Positions 39,680 through 48,067 of a stretch of 64,000 bases of DNA are shown here, one piece after another. Each line of letters starts with the position of its first letter. The first letter of the stretch is position 1. The notes under the pieces were generated by a model. The model did not search any database and had not been told where the DNA came from. It saw only the letters and a program-made list of their open reading frames with translations. Made by a program: the position numbers and the translations under genes. The DNA comes from Gammaproteobacteria bacterium (GTDB lineage: Bacteria > Pseudomonadota > Gammaproteobacteria > UBA6429 > Thiohalophilaceae). The stretch is taken from positions 1 to 64,000 of the forward strand of contig JAHECZ010000011.1 of the NCBI GenBank assembly GCA_024641475.1, written 5' to 3'.

Positions 39680-39744
39680 TTATCAGTCGCGGGTGGTCGG
39701 ATTATCCGGCCACCGGCGCATACTGATTGTCGCTACGAAGAATA

Positions 39745-39769
39745 ACTAGCTACTCGCCACTAGGAACTG
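39745..39769 (+). repeat. Degenerate 7-bp tandem repeats before the E2-E3 gene
   Basis: The sequence reads in heptamers ACTAGCT, ACTCGCC, ACTAGGA and ACTG. The third unit supplies the AGGA of the ribosome binding site for the ATG at 39775. A related heptamer tract, in both orientations, follows the same gene at 42835-42899. Confidence 0.6.
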
Positions 39770-39774
39770 TTTTT

Positions 39775-42700
39775 ATGGCCGCACCCTACACAATTAAAAT
39801 GCCACAGTTATCCGACACCATGACCGAAGGGACATTGGTGACCTGGGAGAAACAAATTGGAGACTACATCGAGCGCGGCACGATCGTCGCGACGGTGGAA
39901 ACCGACAAGGCCATCATGGATGTGGAAGTGTTTCGTGATGGTTATCTGTCTGGTCCGTTAGTGGATATCAATTCAGTTGTGCCCGTTGGTCAGGCAATCG
40001 GTTATTTGGTGGCAAGCAAAGACGAAGTTGAACGTGATGGTCATGCACCGGTTGCCCATACCGAAGTTAAAACAGCGGTAGCTGCTGTGACTGCAATACC
40101 AGCCAGCAAGGTAGCTGGTCCGAAAGATGCGCATCCAATCAAGATGCCGCAATTGTCTGATACGATGACTGAAGGTCTGTTGGTCAGCTGGAGTAAGAAC
40201 GTCGGTGATGAGCTCGTGCGTGGCGATATTGTCGCGCAGGTTGAAACTGATAAAGCGATCATGGATGTCGAAGTTTTCCGTGATGGGTACCTGTCTGGAC
40301 CGATTACGGAAGAAAACAGTACCGTGCCCGTGGGCGACGTTATTGCCTACATCGTGGCAAAACAAACCGATGTTTTAAATACCAAAAATTCCGCGACAAG
40401 CGTTGCGAAAAAATCCGAATCCAAAGCGGCGCATCTGCCGGTCGAACCAGCAGGTACGGCAAAACCCAAGACCCATATTCCCGCCCAACCGCTGGGTGCT
40501 ACACCTGCACCACGCCCCGTGAAACATATGGCGACTCCGTATGCGCGGCAATTGGCCGGTGCACACGGTATCGATCTGAACAGCATTCCCAAGGGTACCG
40601 GTCCCAATGGTGTGATCATTGGTGCCGATGTGTTGAATACCGATGTACAGGCCGGTGCAACGCGGCGAGTGTTTTCGGTTCCCGGTCAAGGGCGTCCGAT
40701 GGACAGCATGGAAAAGGCTGTGGCACACAGCATGGAATTTTCCTTATCGATGCCGTTATTCCGCGTCACGGTGAATATCGATCCGAGCGCCTTACAAGCC
40801 GCATCCAAAGCCAAGGGTTTATCGTTAACCGTGACGATGGCCAAAGCAGCAGGCATGGCCATTCAAAAATATCCGAAGGTCAATGCGGTGTATCAGCATG
40901 AAGATCGCATAGTCGAGCGTGCGCAAATCGATATTGGACTGGCGGTGGAAACTGAAGGCATGGGTCTCGTTGTTCCGGTATTACGTGATGTGATGAATCA
41001 TCCGGTGAATGAACTCAATGACAGCTGGAAAGATTTGGTGAATCGCGCCCGTCTGCGGCGTTTGAAACCCAATGAGTATTCCAATCCGACATTCACGATT
41101 TCCAATATGGGCATGATGGGCGTGGCGCATTTTGATGCAATTCCTTCGCCCGGAACCTCGGCGATCTTTGCCATCTCCACGAATGGTCCACAAGGTATGC
41201 CAGTGACCATCACGGCAGATCACCGCATCGTCAATGGTGCGGATGCGGCGAAATTTTTAAATGTCTTTAAAGGGTTTGTGGAAAATCCAAGCTGGCTGGA
41301 TGCGTCAGCCGTTGCGGTCAGTCGTGCTCCGGCGGCAGCATCTTCAGGTTTTGAATTAGTTAAAGGTAAATACGATTACGATGTCGTGATTATCGGTGGC
41401 GGACCCGGCGGTGAAGACTGTGCCCGCGACCTGGTCGAACATGGTTATAAAGTGGCGATGATCAATGATGCGCCTTTCCCCGGTGGTGAGTGTCTGTGGC
41501 GTGGTTGTATCCCTTCCAAAGCCTGGCGTGCAGCAGCCGACCGCATGCGCGATCGTGTTCATGATGATCATCTGGGTGTGGAAGGAACAACCAAATCGAA
41601 ACTCAATTGGCTGAAGCTGGAAAAGACCCGCCGCAAAGTTCTCGAAACGCGTGGTGACATGGCCCTGAAAACCGACAAGGGTGTGCGCATCGATGTGATG
41701 CAGGGTTTTGGCCGGTTTGTGGATGCTCACACCGTGTTTGTAGATGTCGGTGGCAATAACAAAGATCCACACACACGTGCACAACCAGGTAATGCCAAGA
41801 AAGGCAAAGCCGTGACCTTTGGTGCCGCCGTTATTGCTACCGGTGCGCCGCCGTTCATTCCACCCATTAAGGGTGCCGACACCGGCGTCAAATCCGGTGG
41901 TGTACTGACGTCGGATACCGTTTGGTCGTTGAAAAAGGTTCCTGCCAGGATTGGCGTGATCGGTGGCGGTGCCATCGGTGTGGAAATGGCGCAGATATTC
42001 CAGGACTTCGGCAGCAAGGTATTATTGCTGGAAGTACAGGATCGCATTTTGGCGGAAGTCGAAAAAGAAGTCGCCACGCAACTCACCGCGGTACTCAATG
42101 CCGATCCGAATCTGACCATTGAAACCTCGGTCAAGATCAACGAAATCAAAGGTAAACCCGGTCTGATGAAGCTGGCCTATGCGGATGCCAGCGGGAAGGC
42201 CAAGACCTTTGCTTGTGACTACGTCATTATGGCGACGGGCAAGCGCCCGGTGCTCGAGCCGCTGCAACTCGATAAAGCCGGCATTGCGGCGGAAAAAGGT
42301 GTCATCAAGGCGGACAATCGTTGCCGCACGAATTTGCCGCATATTTTTGCCGTGGGCGATGTCATCGGTGGTTACATGCTCGCCCATACCGCAGGTCAGC
42401 AAGGCCGGGTCGCTGCTGCCAATATCAGTGGTGTGGCCCATACCTATGATCAGGATAAGGATTGCGGCGTGATCTTTACCCGTCCCGAGGCCGCTTTTGT
42501 CGGGTTATCGGTAGACCAGGCGAAAGAAAAGGGTATTGATGCCGTTGAAATCAAAGTACCGATGTCCATTGATGCCAAGGCGATGATTAATAATGAAACC
42601 CATGGCCTTATTAAACTGGTGGCCGATAAAGCCAGCCAGCGCGTCATTGGGGTACATTTCCTGGCTGATCATGCCGATACCCTCATCGGTGAGGCGGTCA

Positions 42701-42834
42701 TGATGGTCAGCGGTAATATGACCTTAGAACAGGTAGGGATGGCGATTCATCCTCATCCGACTCAAACAGAGCTGTTTGGTGACTTGGCACGCCGCCTGGC
42801 TTCCCGGTTACGGCGGAGCGCCAAGAAAAAGTAA
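39775..42834 (+). CDS. Fused E2-E3: dihydrolipoamide acetyltransferase / dihydrolipoamide dehydrogenase
   Basis: This 1019-residue protein joins two enzymes of the 2-oxoacid dehydrogenase complex. E2: two lipoyl domains (lipoyl Lys45 and Lys160, both in ETDKAIMDVEVF), a peripheral subunit-binding domain (about 253-288) and an acyltransferase domain (about 305-525) with ADHRIVNG at 481-488. E3 starts near 533 (YDVVIIGGGPGG), has the redox pair Cys573/Cys578 in GGECLWRGCIPSK, an NAD site IGVIGGGAIGVE and the active HPHPTQTE (His994, Glu999). The acyltransferase motif has Asn487 where DHRxxDG normally has Asp. The linker between E2 and E3 is only about ten residues. I start at ATG 39775 (MAAPYTIKMPQLSD); a 16-codon extension is not lipoyl-like. 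Confidence 0.95.
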   Translation: MAAPYTIKMPQLSDTMTEGTLVTWEKQIGDYIERGTIVATVETDKAIMDVEVFRDGYLSGPLVDINSVVPVGQAIGYLVASKDEVERDGHAPVAHTEVKTAVAAVTAIPASKVAGPKDAHPIKMPQLSDTMTEGLLVSWSKNVGDELVRGDIVAQVETDKAIMDVEVFRDGYLSGPITEENSTVPVGDVIAYIVAKQTDVLNTKNSATSVAKKSESKAAHLPVEPAGTAKPKTHIPAQPLGATPAPRPVKHMATPYARQLAGAHGIDLNSIPKGTGPNGVIIGADVLNTDVQAGATRRVFSVPGQGRPMDSMEKAVAHSMEFSLSMPLFRVTVNIDPSALQAASKAKGLSLTVTMAKAAGMAIQKYPKVNAVYQHEDRIVERAQIDIGLAVETEGMGLVVPVLRDVMNHPVNELNDSWKDLVNRARLRRLKPNEYSNPTFTISNMGMMGVAHFDAIPSPGTSAIFAISTNGPQGMPVTITADHRIVNGADAAKFLNVFKGFVENPSWLDASAVAVSRAPAAASSGFELVKGKYDYDVVIIGGGPGGEDCARDLVEHGYKVAMINDAPFPGGECLWRGCIPSKAWRAAADRMRDRVHDDHLGVEGTTKSKLNWLKLEKTRRKVLETRGDMALKTDKGVRIDVMQGFGRFVDAHTVFVDVGGNNKDPHTRAQPGNAKKGKAVTFGAAVIATGAPPFIPPIKGADTGVKSGGVLTSDTVWSLKKVPARIGVIGGGAIGVEMAQIFQDFGSKVLLLEVQDRILAEVEKEVATQLTAVLNADPNLTIETSVKINEIKGKPGLMKLAYADASGKAKTFACDYVIMATGKRPVLEPLQLDKAGIAAEKGVIKADNRCRTNLPHIFAVGDVIGGYMLAHTAGQQGRVAAANISGVAHTYDQDKDCGVIFTRPEAAFVGLSVDQAKEKGIDAVEIKVPMSIDAKAMINNETHGLIKLVADKASQRVIGVHFLADHADTLIGEAVMMVSGNMTLEQVGMAIHPHPTQTELFGDLARRLASRLRRSAKKK

Positions 42835-44153: not shown

Positions 44154-45365
44154 ATGTCTGTCAAGAAAGTGGTGCTGGCCTATTCCGGCGGTTTGGATAC
44201 CTCCATCATCTTAAAATGGTTGCGGGAAACCTATCAGTGTGAAGTGGTGACATTCACTGCAGACATTGGTCAGGGTGAAGAACTTGAACCCGCACGTGTC
44301 AAGGCCCAACAAATGGGCGTCAAAGAAATCTATATCGAAGATCTCAAAGAAGAATTCGTGCGTGATTACGTCTTCCCGATGTTTCGCGCCAATACCATTT
44401 ATGAAGGTGAATATCTGTTAGGCACGTCCATAGCGCGGCCGTTGATCGCCAAACGACTGGTGGAAATTGCCAAGAAAACCAACGCTGATGCTATTTCTCA
44501 CGGTGCGACCGGTAAAGGCAATGATCAGGTTCGTTTTGAGATGGGCGCCTACGCATTATTACCGGATGTGAAGATCATTGCGCCCTGGCGTATCTGGGAT
44601 CTGACTTCACGTGAAAAGCTGATGCAATATGCGGAGGCCCATGCTATCCCGGTGGATTTCAAGAAAGGCAAGAAATCACCCTATTCGATGGATGCCAATT
44701 TGTTACACATCTCTTATGAAGGCGGCGTATTGGAAGATCCCTGGTCCGAACCTGAAGAAGACATGTGGCGTTGGAGTGTCTCACCGCAAGCCGCACCCGA
44801 TAGTCCCACCGAAATCGAATTAACTTATGCCAAAGGTGATGTGGTTGCGATTGATGGCAAACCGATGACGCCGGCACAGGTGTTGGCTCATTTAAATAAA
44901 GTTGCCGGTGCCAATGGGATTGGTCGGGCGGATATTGTCGAAAATCGCTATGTCGGTATGAAGTCCCGTGGCGCGTATGAAACACCCGGTGGTACCGTTT
45001 TGCTCAAAGCCCATCGGGCAATTGAATCCCTGACACTGGATCGCGAAGTGGCGCATTTGAAAGATGATTTGATGCCGCGTTACGCGAGCCTGATTTATAA
45101 TGGCTACTGGTGGTCGCCGGAACGTCACATGTTGCAAACCATGATCGATGCCTCACAGGCAACTGTGAATGGCATAGTGCGTTTGAAATTGTATAAAGGT
45201 AATGTCAGCGTATGTGGGCGTAAGTCCGAAACCGACAGTCTGTTTGATGCCAGTATCGCCACGTTTGAGGATGATGCCGGTGCCTATAACCAGAAAGATG
45301 CCGAAGGCTTTATCAAGCTCAACGCGCTACGGATGCGTATCGCTGCCAAACGTAAACATCGATAA
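44154..45365 (+). CDS. argG: Argininosuccinate synthase ArgG
   Basis: This enzyme condenses citrulline and aspartate with ATP to argininosuccinate, the penultimate step of arginine synthesis. The PP-loop AYSGGLDTS lies at residues 9-17, followed by [15 protein letters not shown] for citrulline and aspartate binding and [18 protein letters not shown]. The 403-residue length matches the shorter type found in most bacteria rather than the E. coli form (447). The ribosome binding site AGAGGGGAG is strong. argH is not in the window. The gene ends at a bidirectional terminator. Confidence 0.97.
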
Positions 45366-45428: not shown

Positions 45429-45887
45429 TTATCGGAAAAATTTAGAGGCAATAAAATGATCCAGGCTCAGTTTGCCCGGGCCGTTGAAGAACAATGGCAA
45501 GAATAAAATGATGTAAATAAGTGGTAACTGATAACCATTATTACATACGTTATAACCAAGTCCGGCATGAACGCTATACCATGCGACAATCGTCAGGATA
45601 ATCAACGCAAAACTGAAAAAGCGTGTGCCCAGCCCCAATAGCAGTGCGATCGCGCCTAACACTTCAAACCAGGTTGCCAGGAACCAGCTGACATCGGTTG
45701 GGATGACGCTAAAAGGGAAAGGAAACTGATTATGGATTGCGTTAAACCAGTTTTCGCCGCGAAATTTTTCCAGTCCCGATTCCCAGAATTCATAAGCCAA
45801 CAACAGGCGTAGTCCCATCTGCGGTATGAATTGTCCAAAATGGTCAAGCGGCGTAATGAGAAGATTATTCAGTCTGTCTGTCAGCAT
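45429..45887 (-). CDS. DoxX-family membrane protein
   Basis: This 152-residue protein has four hydrophobic segments and the DoxX signature: GLRLLLAYEFWESGLEKF in the first helix, WFLATWFEVLGAIALLLGLGTRFFSFALIIL in the middle and a last helix near 120-138. DoxX proteins are small quinone-linked membrane redox components; a DoxX gene is also a frequent member of bufferin/HvfA-type modified-peptide operons. The two (E/D)GKCG proteins lie just upstream on the same strand, but a strong terminator (45965-45999) separates them, so coupling by read-through would be needed. Confidence 0.88.
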   Translation of the reverse strand: MLTDRLNNLLITPLDHFGQFIPQMGLRLLLAYEFWESGLEKFRGENWFNAIHNQFPFPFSVIPTDVSWFLATWFEVLGAIALLLGLGTRFFSFALIILTIVAWYSVHAGLGYNVCNNGYQLPLIYIILFLPLFFNGPGKLSLDHFIASKFFR

Positions 45888-45964
45888 GAGATGGTCTGCC
45901 TCGTAAAAAAATATATTTAATACTGAGAAAGACCAGAACTAAGATGGGATGCTTACAAACCGTA

Positions 45965-45999
45965 ACCAAAAAATAACGGCGGACATTGTCCGCCGTTAT
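45965..45999 (-). terminator. Terminator after the first DGKCG protein gene
   Basis: On the minus strand an 11-base perfect stem (ATAACGGCGGA/TCCGCCGTTAT, 45973-45999) is followed by a T run. It lies 56 bases after the stop codon at 46055 and before the doxX start at 45887. Confidence 0.92.
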
Positions 46000-46054
46000 C
46001 ATCATCTGTTAGAGAACTTTGCTGTCAGTAGTGACACGAGTAAATCCAATCAGA

Positions 46055-46360
46055 TTATTTCTTGTCGCCAGCGCCGCATTTGCCGGTGCCGCATTTACCG
46101 TCTTTGGCTTTTGGGCTACCGCCGCATTTGCCGTCCTTCATGTCTTCTTTCTTCATGTCTTTGCCGCATTTGCCATCTTTCTTCTTGGCTGCTTTCTTCT
46201 CGGTTTTCTTCGCGTCTTTCTTGTCGCCACCGCATTTGCCATCTTTCATTTCAGCGGCGGGGGCAGCAGCAGGGGCTTCAGCCGCGACAACAACATGGCT
46301 GAGGGCCAGGCTGGCGGCGAACATAGAACCGATGATCATTGACAGAATTTTATTCGACAT
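46055..46360 (-). CDS. Secreted DGKCG-repeat protein, HvfA/bufferin precursor-like
   Basis: This 101-residue protein starts at ATG 46360 with a GGAGAG ribosome binding site. It has a signal peptide (about 1-27), an Ala/Pro stretch, then a Lys/Asp/Gly-rich body. Its only cysteines are five, each in a KCG context: DGKCG at Cys43, Cys65, Cys79 and Cys90, and TGKCG at Cys95. Repeated EGKCG-type pentapeptides are the mark of HvfA-like precursors whose cysteines are converted to heterocycles by MNIO (DUF692) enzymes, giving copper-binding peptides. No MNIO or DUF2063 partner lies in this window. It could instead be an unmodified metal-binding protein. Confidence 0.75.
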   Translation of the reverse strand: MSNKILSMIIGSMFAASLALSHVVVAAEAPAAAPAAEMKDGKCGGDKKDAKKTEKKAAKKKDGKCGKDMKKEDMKDGKCGGSPKAKDGKCGTGKCGAGDKK

Positions 46361-46385
46361 TGATTTTCTCTCCGTGTGATAACAA

Positions 46386-46421
46386 ATACCCCTGTTTTTG
46401 TTCCCGGCATATACATAGGGG
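46386..46421 (-). promoter_or_regulatory. Shared upstream element, copy 1
   Basis: This 36-base segment, 25 bases before the start of the DGKCG gene, matches 46948-46983 before the second small gene at about 25 of 36 positions. Both begin (plus-strand view) ATACCCCT and end in GGGG, with identical spacing. Further upstream both genes also share GACCTAA(C/G)TT (46477 and 47054). This suggests the same regulator or sigma factor. Confidence 0.55.
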
Positions 46422-46634
46422 CTGAAGCTATACATGCCAGGTGGCTAACAATACGATGCCTTAAGTCAGGAATAAAGACCTAACTTTGTGGAAATTGCTT
46501 GCAGGCTAGGCAGTCTTTTTGTGATGAAATCGATTAGAAATAACAAATCTGGGGGCAAATTAACCAATAATTACGTAATGGCAATTCGGTCTAAGGAATA
46601 AAAAAGGGGGTGTATAAAGACTTGCTTGAGGGGT
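46422..46634. other. Spacer between the two small KCG-protein genes
   Basis: No reading frame with coding character or RNA is recognised. The right part is purine/AT-rich with GGGGG and AAAAAA runs (about 46550-46610). The left part belongs to the upstream region of the first small gene. Confidence 0.4.
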
Positions 46635-46668
46635 AAAAACACTGCGGCGGAGATTGATTCCGCCGCAG
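46635..46668 (-). terminator. Terminator after the EGKCG protein gene
   Basis: On the minus strand a perfect 10-base stem CTGCGGCGGA/TCCGCCGCAG with a 7-base loop (46642-46668) is followed by TGTTTTTAC, 18 bases after the stop at 46687. Each of the two small genes therefore has its own terminator. Confidence 0.92.
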
Positions 46669-46686
46669 GTGTTGGTCAGCGCGTTA

Positions 46687-46917
46687 TTACTTGGCGCCGC
46701 CGCACTTACCTTCTTCTTTCTTCTCTGCTTTCTTCTTCTTAGCATGTTTCTTAGCTGCTTTCTTCTTTTCTGCTTTCTTTTCTGCTTTGGCAGGAGCAGC
46801 GGCTGGAGCTTCAGCAGCGGCAGGTGCAGCAGGAGCGGCAGCAGGTGCATCAGCAGCTACAGCGGTACCCATGGCCAGAGCAAAGATAGAAGCGAGTGCG
46901 AGTGCTTGAATTTTCAT
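46687..46917 (-). CDS. Small secreted Ala/Lys-rich protein with C-terminal EGKCG
   Basis: This 76-residue protein starts at ATG 46917 with GGAGAG upstream. It has a signal peptide (about 1-22, ending AVAAD), an Ala/Pro linker, a Lys/Ala/Glu run and the end EEGKCGGAK, with Cys72 as its only cysteine. The layout and upstream sequence match the DGKCG protein next to it, so the two are paralogues or share origin. It may be a reduced HvfA-like precursor with one modifiable Cys, or a histone-like basic peptide in the periplasm. Low complexity limits homology claims. Confidence 0.7.
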   Translation of the reverse strand: MKIQALALASIFALAMGTAVAADAPAAAPAAPAAAEAPAAAPAKAEKKAEKKKAAKKHAKKKKAEKKEEGKCGGAK

Positions 46918-46947
46918 TTGGTTCTCTCCGTTAATTAACTGGATCAC

Positions 46948-46986
46948 ATACCCCTTTATTTTGACCTGGGGTGTATACAGGGGTAT
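46948..46986 (-). promoter_or_regulatory. Shared upstream element, copy 2
   Basis: This is the second copy of the element described at 46386-46421, here 30 bases before the ATG of the EGKCG gene. It is itself an inverted pair: ATACCCC at the left end and GGGGTAT at the right end (46948-46954 and 46980-46986), with GTATAC inside. It may be an operator. Confidence 0.55.
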
Positions 46987-47419: not shown

Positions 47420-48067
47420 ATGAATCCATCCAAGCGTAAGGCGATATTCCAGCGGCTCAAACAGCTCAATCCTGCTCCCACGACAGAATTAGCCTATCAG
47501 ACCCCTTTTCAGTTACTGGTGGCAGTGATTCTCTCTGCCCAGGCCACAGACAAAAGTGTCAATAAGGCTACCGGCCCGCTGTATGCCGCGGCGAATACCC
47601 CCGAATCCATACTTTCCCTGAAAGAGTCCGGCTTGAAGAAATACATCAAAAGTATCGGGCTGTTTAATACCAAGGCAAAAAATATCATACGTACCTGTCA
47701 GATTCTGATAGACCAGTATGGCAGCGAAGTTCCGGAAGACCGGGCTGCGCTGGAAGCCCTCCCCGGGGTCGGGCGCAAAACGGCCAATGTCATTTTAAAT
47801 ACCGCCTTTGGTCATCCCACCATTGCCGTAGATACACATATTTTTCGGGTCAGTAACAGGATAGGTATCGCCCCGGGCAAGACCGTGCGTGAGGTGGAAG
47901 ACAAGTTAAATAAAGTCGTGCCGGATGAATTCAAACAGGATGCGCATCATTGGCTGATCTTGCACGGCCGGTATGTGTGTATGGCACGCAAGCCTCACTG
48001 TAACGCCTGCGTGATTCGAGATTTGTGTGAATATTCCGCAAAAGAACCCGTCAGCAACAAAACCTGA
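47420..48067 (+). CDS. nth: Endonuclease III Nth
   Basis: This base-excision repair enzyme removes oxidised pyrimidines and nicks the abasic site. The 215 residues contain the helix-hairpin-helix LPGVGRKTANVI with the catalytic Lys, the catalytic Asp in AVDTHIFRV, and a [4Fe-4S] cluster motif C-x6-C-x2-C-x5-C near the C-terminus (YVCMARKPHCNACVIRDLC). In many gammaproteobacteria nth is the last gene of the rnf operon; here it is on the opposite strand, convergent with rnfE 5 bases away. Confidence 0.97.
   Translation: MNPSKRKAIFQRLKQLNPAPTTELAYQTPFQLLVAVILSAQATDKSVNKATGPLYAAANTPESILSLKESGLKKYIKSIGLFNTKAKNIIRTCQILIDQYGSEVPEDRAALEALPGVGRKTANVILNTAFGHPTIAVDTHIFRVSNRIGIAPGKTVREVEDKLNKVVPDEFKQDAHHWLILHGRYVCMARKPHCNACVIRDLCEYSAKEPVSNKT

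Follow-up and report, generated by a model that had tools for sequence, protein, structure and literature searches.

A reduced variant of the HvfA–HvfX system at a locus lacking MNIO and DUF2063 genes

Genes and features of the locus

In the window (the whole stretch of DNA analysed, 64,000 nucleotides), a DoxX-family gene and two small genes lie between argG and nth. The features are as follows:

44154–45365, plus strand: argG, anchor gene on one flank of the ancestral hvf site
45429–45887 (coding 45432–45887), minus strand: hvfX, DoxX family, short subfamily, 152 aa
45972–46000, minus strand: intrinsic terminator between hvfA and hvfX, 13-pair stem with T tail
46055–46360 (stop included; coding 46058–46360), minus strand: hvfA-like gene P0001, 101 aa
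46073–46243, minus strand: P0001 repeat region, four DGKCG and one TGKCG
46388–46421, minus strand: P0001 upstream element, CCCC-TATGTATA...-GGGGT, an inverted repeat CCCC/GGGG around TATA
46642–46668, minus strand: intrinsic terminator after P0002, 10-pair stem
46687–46917 (coding 46690–46917), minus strand: P0002, Ala/Lys-rich, predicted exported, 76 aa, single C-terminal EGKCG
46950–46983, minus strand: P0002 upstream element, CCCC-TGTATACA...-GGGGT, of the P0001 type
47420–48067, plus strand: nth (endonuclease III), anchor gene on the other flank of that site

The P0001 protein (MSNKILSMIIGSMFAASLALSHVVVAAEAPAAAPAAEMKDGKCGG...DGKCGTGKCGAGDKK) consists of a Sec-type N-terminus, an Ala/Pro linker without the NPF...GY leader, and a Lys-rich tail with five GKCG repeats that hold all five of its cysteines. 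A preliminary description had placed every cysteine of both small proteins in EGKCG or DGKCG; this is right for four P0001 cysteines and for that of P0002, but the fifth P0001 cysteine lies in TGKCG. The Ala-rich hydrophobic N-termini of P0001 and P0002, judged by eye, resemble a Sec signal peptide, suggesting that both proteins are exported. Against the HvfA-domain model NF050137, P0001 scored 19.2 bits, just below the cut-off of 19.5, which was exceeded by the hvfA orthologue of a congener (G001; 26.5) and by a further precursor on contig C101 of the window genome (25.6). A DNA pattern for paired GKCG gave eight matches in the 3.16 Mb genome, all within two genes, and none in the reversed control; the clustering exceeds chance. 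The 167-nt gap between P0001 and hvfX, on the minus strand, contains a strong terminator. Since strong terminators stand at the ends of both small genes, hvfA and hvfX do not form a simple operon.

The HvfX protein matched NCBIfam NF050144 at 1.2e-41 and 142.6 bits (cut-off 80) and Pfam DoxX at 4.2e-20. This bears out the earlier proposal of an HvfA-like precursor followed by a DoxX gene on the same strand. The alignment covers model positions 2–94 and 128–164, and about 95–127 (~33 positions of the long form) are missing. A tree of HvfX proteins divides them deeply into a long and a short subfamily (support 100/100), both of which occur with hvfABC. In the window's HvfX, a protein still uncharacterised as a family (PMC13419390), the residues invariant among its relatives are conserved. 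An AlphaFold2 model (pLDDT 83.5) shows a helical protein in which the loop at 111–115 is poorly determined; the modelled helices are consistent with a membrane bundle. A fold search of the PDB with this model returned nothing at E<=0.001; the best match, NACHO/TMEM35A at E 0.27, was given no weight. Loci of family f1, to which the window genome belongs, mostly carry the long HvfX. In the window's genus and in genomes G007 and G021 (L034, L035, L039), a short HvfX occupies this site, as if the gene had been replaced in situ.

The upstream element, P0002 and a third precursor

The genes P0001 and P0002, their orthologues in G001 and the C101 precursor gene are all preceded by an inverted repeat, CCCC ... 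GGGGT, which has TATA after its left arm and ~25 nt between the arms. The pattern CCCCN{2,4}TATAN{13,20}GGGGT matched the window genome three times, at these three genes, and its reversed control not at all; the crude expected count is 0 to 2 per genome. As the pattern was written from the sites it matches, its weight lies in the lack of other sites and in its presence at two loci and in two species. In G001 it matched at both orthologues and at one further place. The element gave sub-threshold matches to Rfam only, none at gathering scores, and as RNA folded no better than shuffles; a known RNA was rejected on both counts. The element is more likely to be a DNA operator or promoter than an RNA. 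G-tract operators are reminiscent of CsoR-type repressors. The common element suggests that P0001, the C101 precursor and P0002 may be switched on together.

The C101 gene (C101:10148-10537, L060, minus strand) encodes a third HvfA-like precursor of 128 aa with seven [DE]GKCG repeats. It is unlinked to hvfX or any MNIO gene, and its NPF leader is partial. The preliminary description had counted two precursors at the locus. We found that P0001 is one, while P0002 is doubtful and the real further precursor is the unlinked one. The sole cysteine of P0002 stands in EEGKCGGAK, and its orthologue in G001 (L039:6153-6425) has no cysteine, so the single EGKCG is not conserved there. In an assay of FonBC, a two-repeat peptide was modified and a one-repeat peptide was not (PMC13097082). 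The role of second precursor for P0002 is thus unsupported by its orthologue, and P0002 is probably not a precursor. Several relatives have ECF sigma or anti-sigma-like genes upstream of hvfA (L046:1587-2234; contig C95 of G007), at the position taken by P0002 in the window's genus.

The composition of P0002 is Asr-like, which raises the question of whether the Ala/Lys-rich chain is what matters, in protection against acid or of periplasmic proteins or polyanions, with the cysteines serving a redox or secondary role. P0001, P0002 and the G001 hvfA gave weak Asr matches (24.0, 18.8 and 27.5 bits), and P0002 shares the element although its congener orthologue lacks cysteine. These scores fall short of the 50-bit cut-off of NF033636 and are probably driven by composition, and the cysteines are conserved between P0001 and its orthologue. 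We consider such an Asr-like stress protein improbable.

Loss of the modifying enzymes from a complete cluster

Neither an MNIO (DUF692) nor a DUF2063 gene lies at the P0001–hvfX locus, as had been described. Genome-wide searches revealed no PF05114 (MNIO; searched to E<=10) and no PF09836 (DUF2063) in the window genome (G000; 97.4% complete, 131 contigs), in the 99% complete G001, or in two further genomes of family f1, G007 and G012. Both domains were found in 29 of 40 relatives. The chance that both species of the genus miss the enzymes through incompleteness is roughly 0.026 x 0.01. YcaO, considered as a substitute maturase, was ruled out by its absence from the same four genomes. Of the alternatives offered in the preliminary description, a reduced relative fits these results; a satellite relying on enzymes encoded elsewhere does not. 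The lack of a DUF692 gene in the genome, which that description had itself named as refuting, counts against the reading of a modified peptide.

Such genomes are rare. In a class-wide sample of 377 genomes with completeness >=95%, the paired-GKCG DNA pattern occurred in 96 and MNIO in 214 (association p = 1e-18), and seven had the pattern without MNIO when two tables were combined (G000, G001, G007, G182, G191, G229 and G292). This agrees with a survey that reported EGKCG precursor genes without MNIO in 67 of 2583 complete genomes (PMC12452194 Table 3).

We found that relatives in family f1 share the order metG-rnf-nth-[ECF sigma]-hvfA-hvfB-hvfC-hvfX-argG-ompA-pdh, whole or largely present in eight genomes (G023, G014, G010, G006, G020, G024, G009 and G021) and partial in four (G019, G033, G013 and G005). 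The window and G001 have nth-P0002-hvfA-hvfX-argG-ompA-pdh, in which precisely hvfB (MNIO) and hvfC (DUF2063) are missing. The site therefore descends from a complete hvfABCX cluster, with the nth and argG flanks in common. An assembly gap was excluded, as hvfA adjoins hvfX on unbroken contigs in G000, G001, G007 and G012. Two pairs of genomes showed the contrast within a genus: hvfABCX in G021 against hvfA-hvfX in G007, and likewise hvfABCX in G023 against hvfA-hvfX in G012. The number of hvfBC losses in the family would be about three if they were independent, and the HvfX tree leaves their order unsettled.

Other rearrangements were seen around these sites. In G001 (L039:3964-5774), the region from metG to nth retains just an rnfB-like gene and has seemingly lost rnfA, C, D, G and E. 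The hvf genes are split in L029 and L178 (G002, G019): hvfABC adjoins nth, as seen in G019, and another hvfA with hvfX lies elsewhere, in G002 beside ECF sigma/anti-sigma genes. In the window, a frame of 1035 aa (39727-42834) appears by eye to join an E2 of pyruvate dehydrogenase, which has two lipoyl domains, to an E3 (dihydrolipoamide dehydrogenase).

The leader is lost and the repeats are kept

In precursors of MNIO-positive genomes, a conserved ...GY(M/Q)... motif closes the stretch between the signal peptide and the repeats. GY or GF before the repeats was present in 72 of 74 precursors of the MNIO-positive set and in none of the five from the four MNIO-less genomes of family f1, namely P0001, the C101 precursor and those of G001, G007 and G012 (Fisher 9e-7, or 1.4e-4 when the genomes count as three genera and 5e-6 when L095 is added), with kinship handled solely by counting genera and with G182, G191, G229 and G292 left out. 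A leader HMM gave 16.4 bits for P0001, 15.1 for G001, 27.7 for G007, 35.1 for G012 and 37.4 for the C101 precursor; the MNIO-positive set, scored by leave-one-out, had a median of 61.5 and a 5th percentile of 38. There were exceptions in both directions. L095 (G054) has an intact leader and no MNIO was found, in a MAG whose completeness is not given. The leader of the MNIO-positive G021 has no GY although hvfBC is present, and therefore loss of GY is not proof of non-modification.

Previous work bears on what a lost leader means. HvfBC favours HvfA with its signal sequence, which was taken as the leader, as in bufferin biosynthesis (PMC13419390), and MmrA leaders are highly conserved (PMC12538549). 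Because most single Ala substitutions ahead of the core were tolerated by FonBC (PMC13097082), leader loss is support for an unmodified peptide, not proof of one.

The repeats have fared differently from the leader. Each of the five P0001 GKCG motifs has a GKCG counterpart in the alignment with G001, at an argG dS of ~3 (saturated) and an hvfA dS of 1.6, and nearly all GKCG cysteines are retained in the precursors of the MNIO-less genomes. Deviations were seen in one G001 repeat, which reads DGKDG, and in G007, which has DAKCG and DDKCG. Judged as an HvfA / Buf_EGKCG-oxazolin precursor, P0001 thus has the repeated cysteine motif and lacks the conserved leader.

These results bear on three alternatives. 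If the locus were a satellite, MNIO and DUF2063 enzymes encoded elsewhere would modify its precursors. Compact hvfA-hvfX loci do occur in such a setting: 44 of 50 searched genomes with other loci of this kind have MNIO, their leaders are intact, and the window assembly, at 97.4%, is in 131 contigs. The absence of both enzymes from two nearly complete genomes and the loss of the leader make this very improbable for the window. Modification of the cysteines by a different, unrecognised enzyme would account for the conserved motif, as expected of an enzyme substrate, and NCBIfam labels HvfX a maturation protein. We regard it as quite unlikely, given the lost leader, the lack of YcaO and the finding that no new gene occupies the hvfBC position in MNIO-less loci.

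The third alternative is a decaying remnant, in which precursor and HvfX merely await deletion after the enzymes were lost. Erosion of the leader and the imperfect repeats would fit, as would the identity between the congeners of 58% for HvfX compared with 87% for ArgG. One MNIO-positive pair, however, is also only 56% identical in HvfX, and faster HvfX evolution was rejected as an unspecific mark of enzyme loss. Decay is further opposed by the retention of the five P0001 repeats across saturated synonymous divergence, the intact frames, an upstream element conserved in both species, the invariant HvfX residues and a third precursor with seven perfect repeats. Collectively, these observations make decay unlikely.

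Discussion

The explanation that we favour, at a probability of about 0.6, is that the locus is a reduced remnant of HvfABCX (captophorin/oxazolin) that is still in use, with unmodified thiolates buffering periplasmic metal. The ancestor would have carried hvfA-hvfB-hvfC-hvfX between nth and argG. Within assemblies 97% and 99% complete, hvfB and its DUF2063 partner hvfC are lost genome-wide in the genus. HvfX is retained, as are the GKCG repeats of HvfA, but not the N-terminal leader conserved in the relatives, so that the peptide would no longer be under selection to serve as a substrate of the enzymes. Both P0001 and the C101 precursor would be exported and act unmodified, as Lys/Cys-rich, disordered chains in the periplasm. 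Their free thiolates may bind a soft metal, of which Cu(I) is the most plausible, or may act as a buffer against thiol stress. By analogy, membrane-bound HvfX could be the redox or delivery partner of the peptide, and CCCC-N~25-GGGGT with its TATA may co-regulate both precursors and P0002. One published result counts against this explanation: E. coli with mmrA alone grew slightly worse under copper than with mmrABC (PMC12538549).

More tentatively, HvfA and HvfX might form a stand-alone metal (or thiol-stress) system independent of MNIO chemistry, in which EGKCG peptides bind metal through plain cysteines with HvfX as partner, the enzymes are a dispensable add-on that was repeatedly lost, and, in the window's genus, a new private regulator reads CCCC-N~25-GGGGT. 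The published survey leaves open whether a precursor without a linked MNIO gene stays unmodified or receives its modification elsewhere (PMC12452194). A syntenic case with same-genus controls makes this question testable, and could separate the roles of the repeat and of HvfX from that of the conversion of cysteines to 5-thiooxazole.

Several known systems resemble the locus in part. The Asr acid-shock protein (NF033636) is likewise small, exported and Ala/Lys-rich, but P0001 and P0002 score far under its curated cut-off, and Asr is not known to have GKCG repeats. SilE, a periplasmic disordered silver 'molecular sponge' (PMC5008109), is a precedent for the proposed unmodified, disordered, exported metal-binding chain, as an analogy in mode of action only.

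Also similar are the compact loci of the Thiobacillus type, found outside family f1 mainly in Thiobacillus and Hydrogenophilales, where hvfA also stands directly before a short-subfamily hvfX with no hvfBC between them. They differ in that the leader is kept and most of those genomes carry MNIO elsewhere, which makes a satellite reading plausible for them. Among compact arrangements, L083 has hvfA-hvfX beside hvfABC, and in L044:6386-6766 (contig C21 of G015) the precursor has EGSCG/EASCG replacing EGKCG.

A further likeness is to HvfABCX of nontypeable Haemophilus influenzae (oxazolin) and to the captophorins of MNIO-PME1 clusters (fontiphorin, gonophorin and bulbicupramide), with which the locus shares EGKCG-type repeats in an exported precursor and an HvfX-family DoxX gene. 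In contrast to these systems, the window genome lacks HvfB and HvfC, the leader motif is gone, and in place of a neighbouring ECF sigma gene the locus has an upstream element of its own. It nevertheless occupies the orthologous site of complete HvfABCX clusters within the same bacterial family, and is not a new family but a reduced variant of the HvfA–HvfX system.
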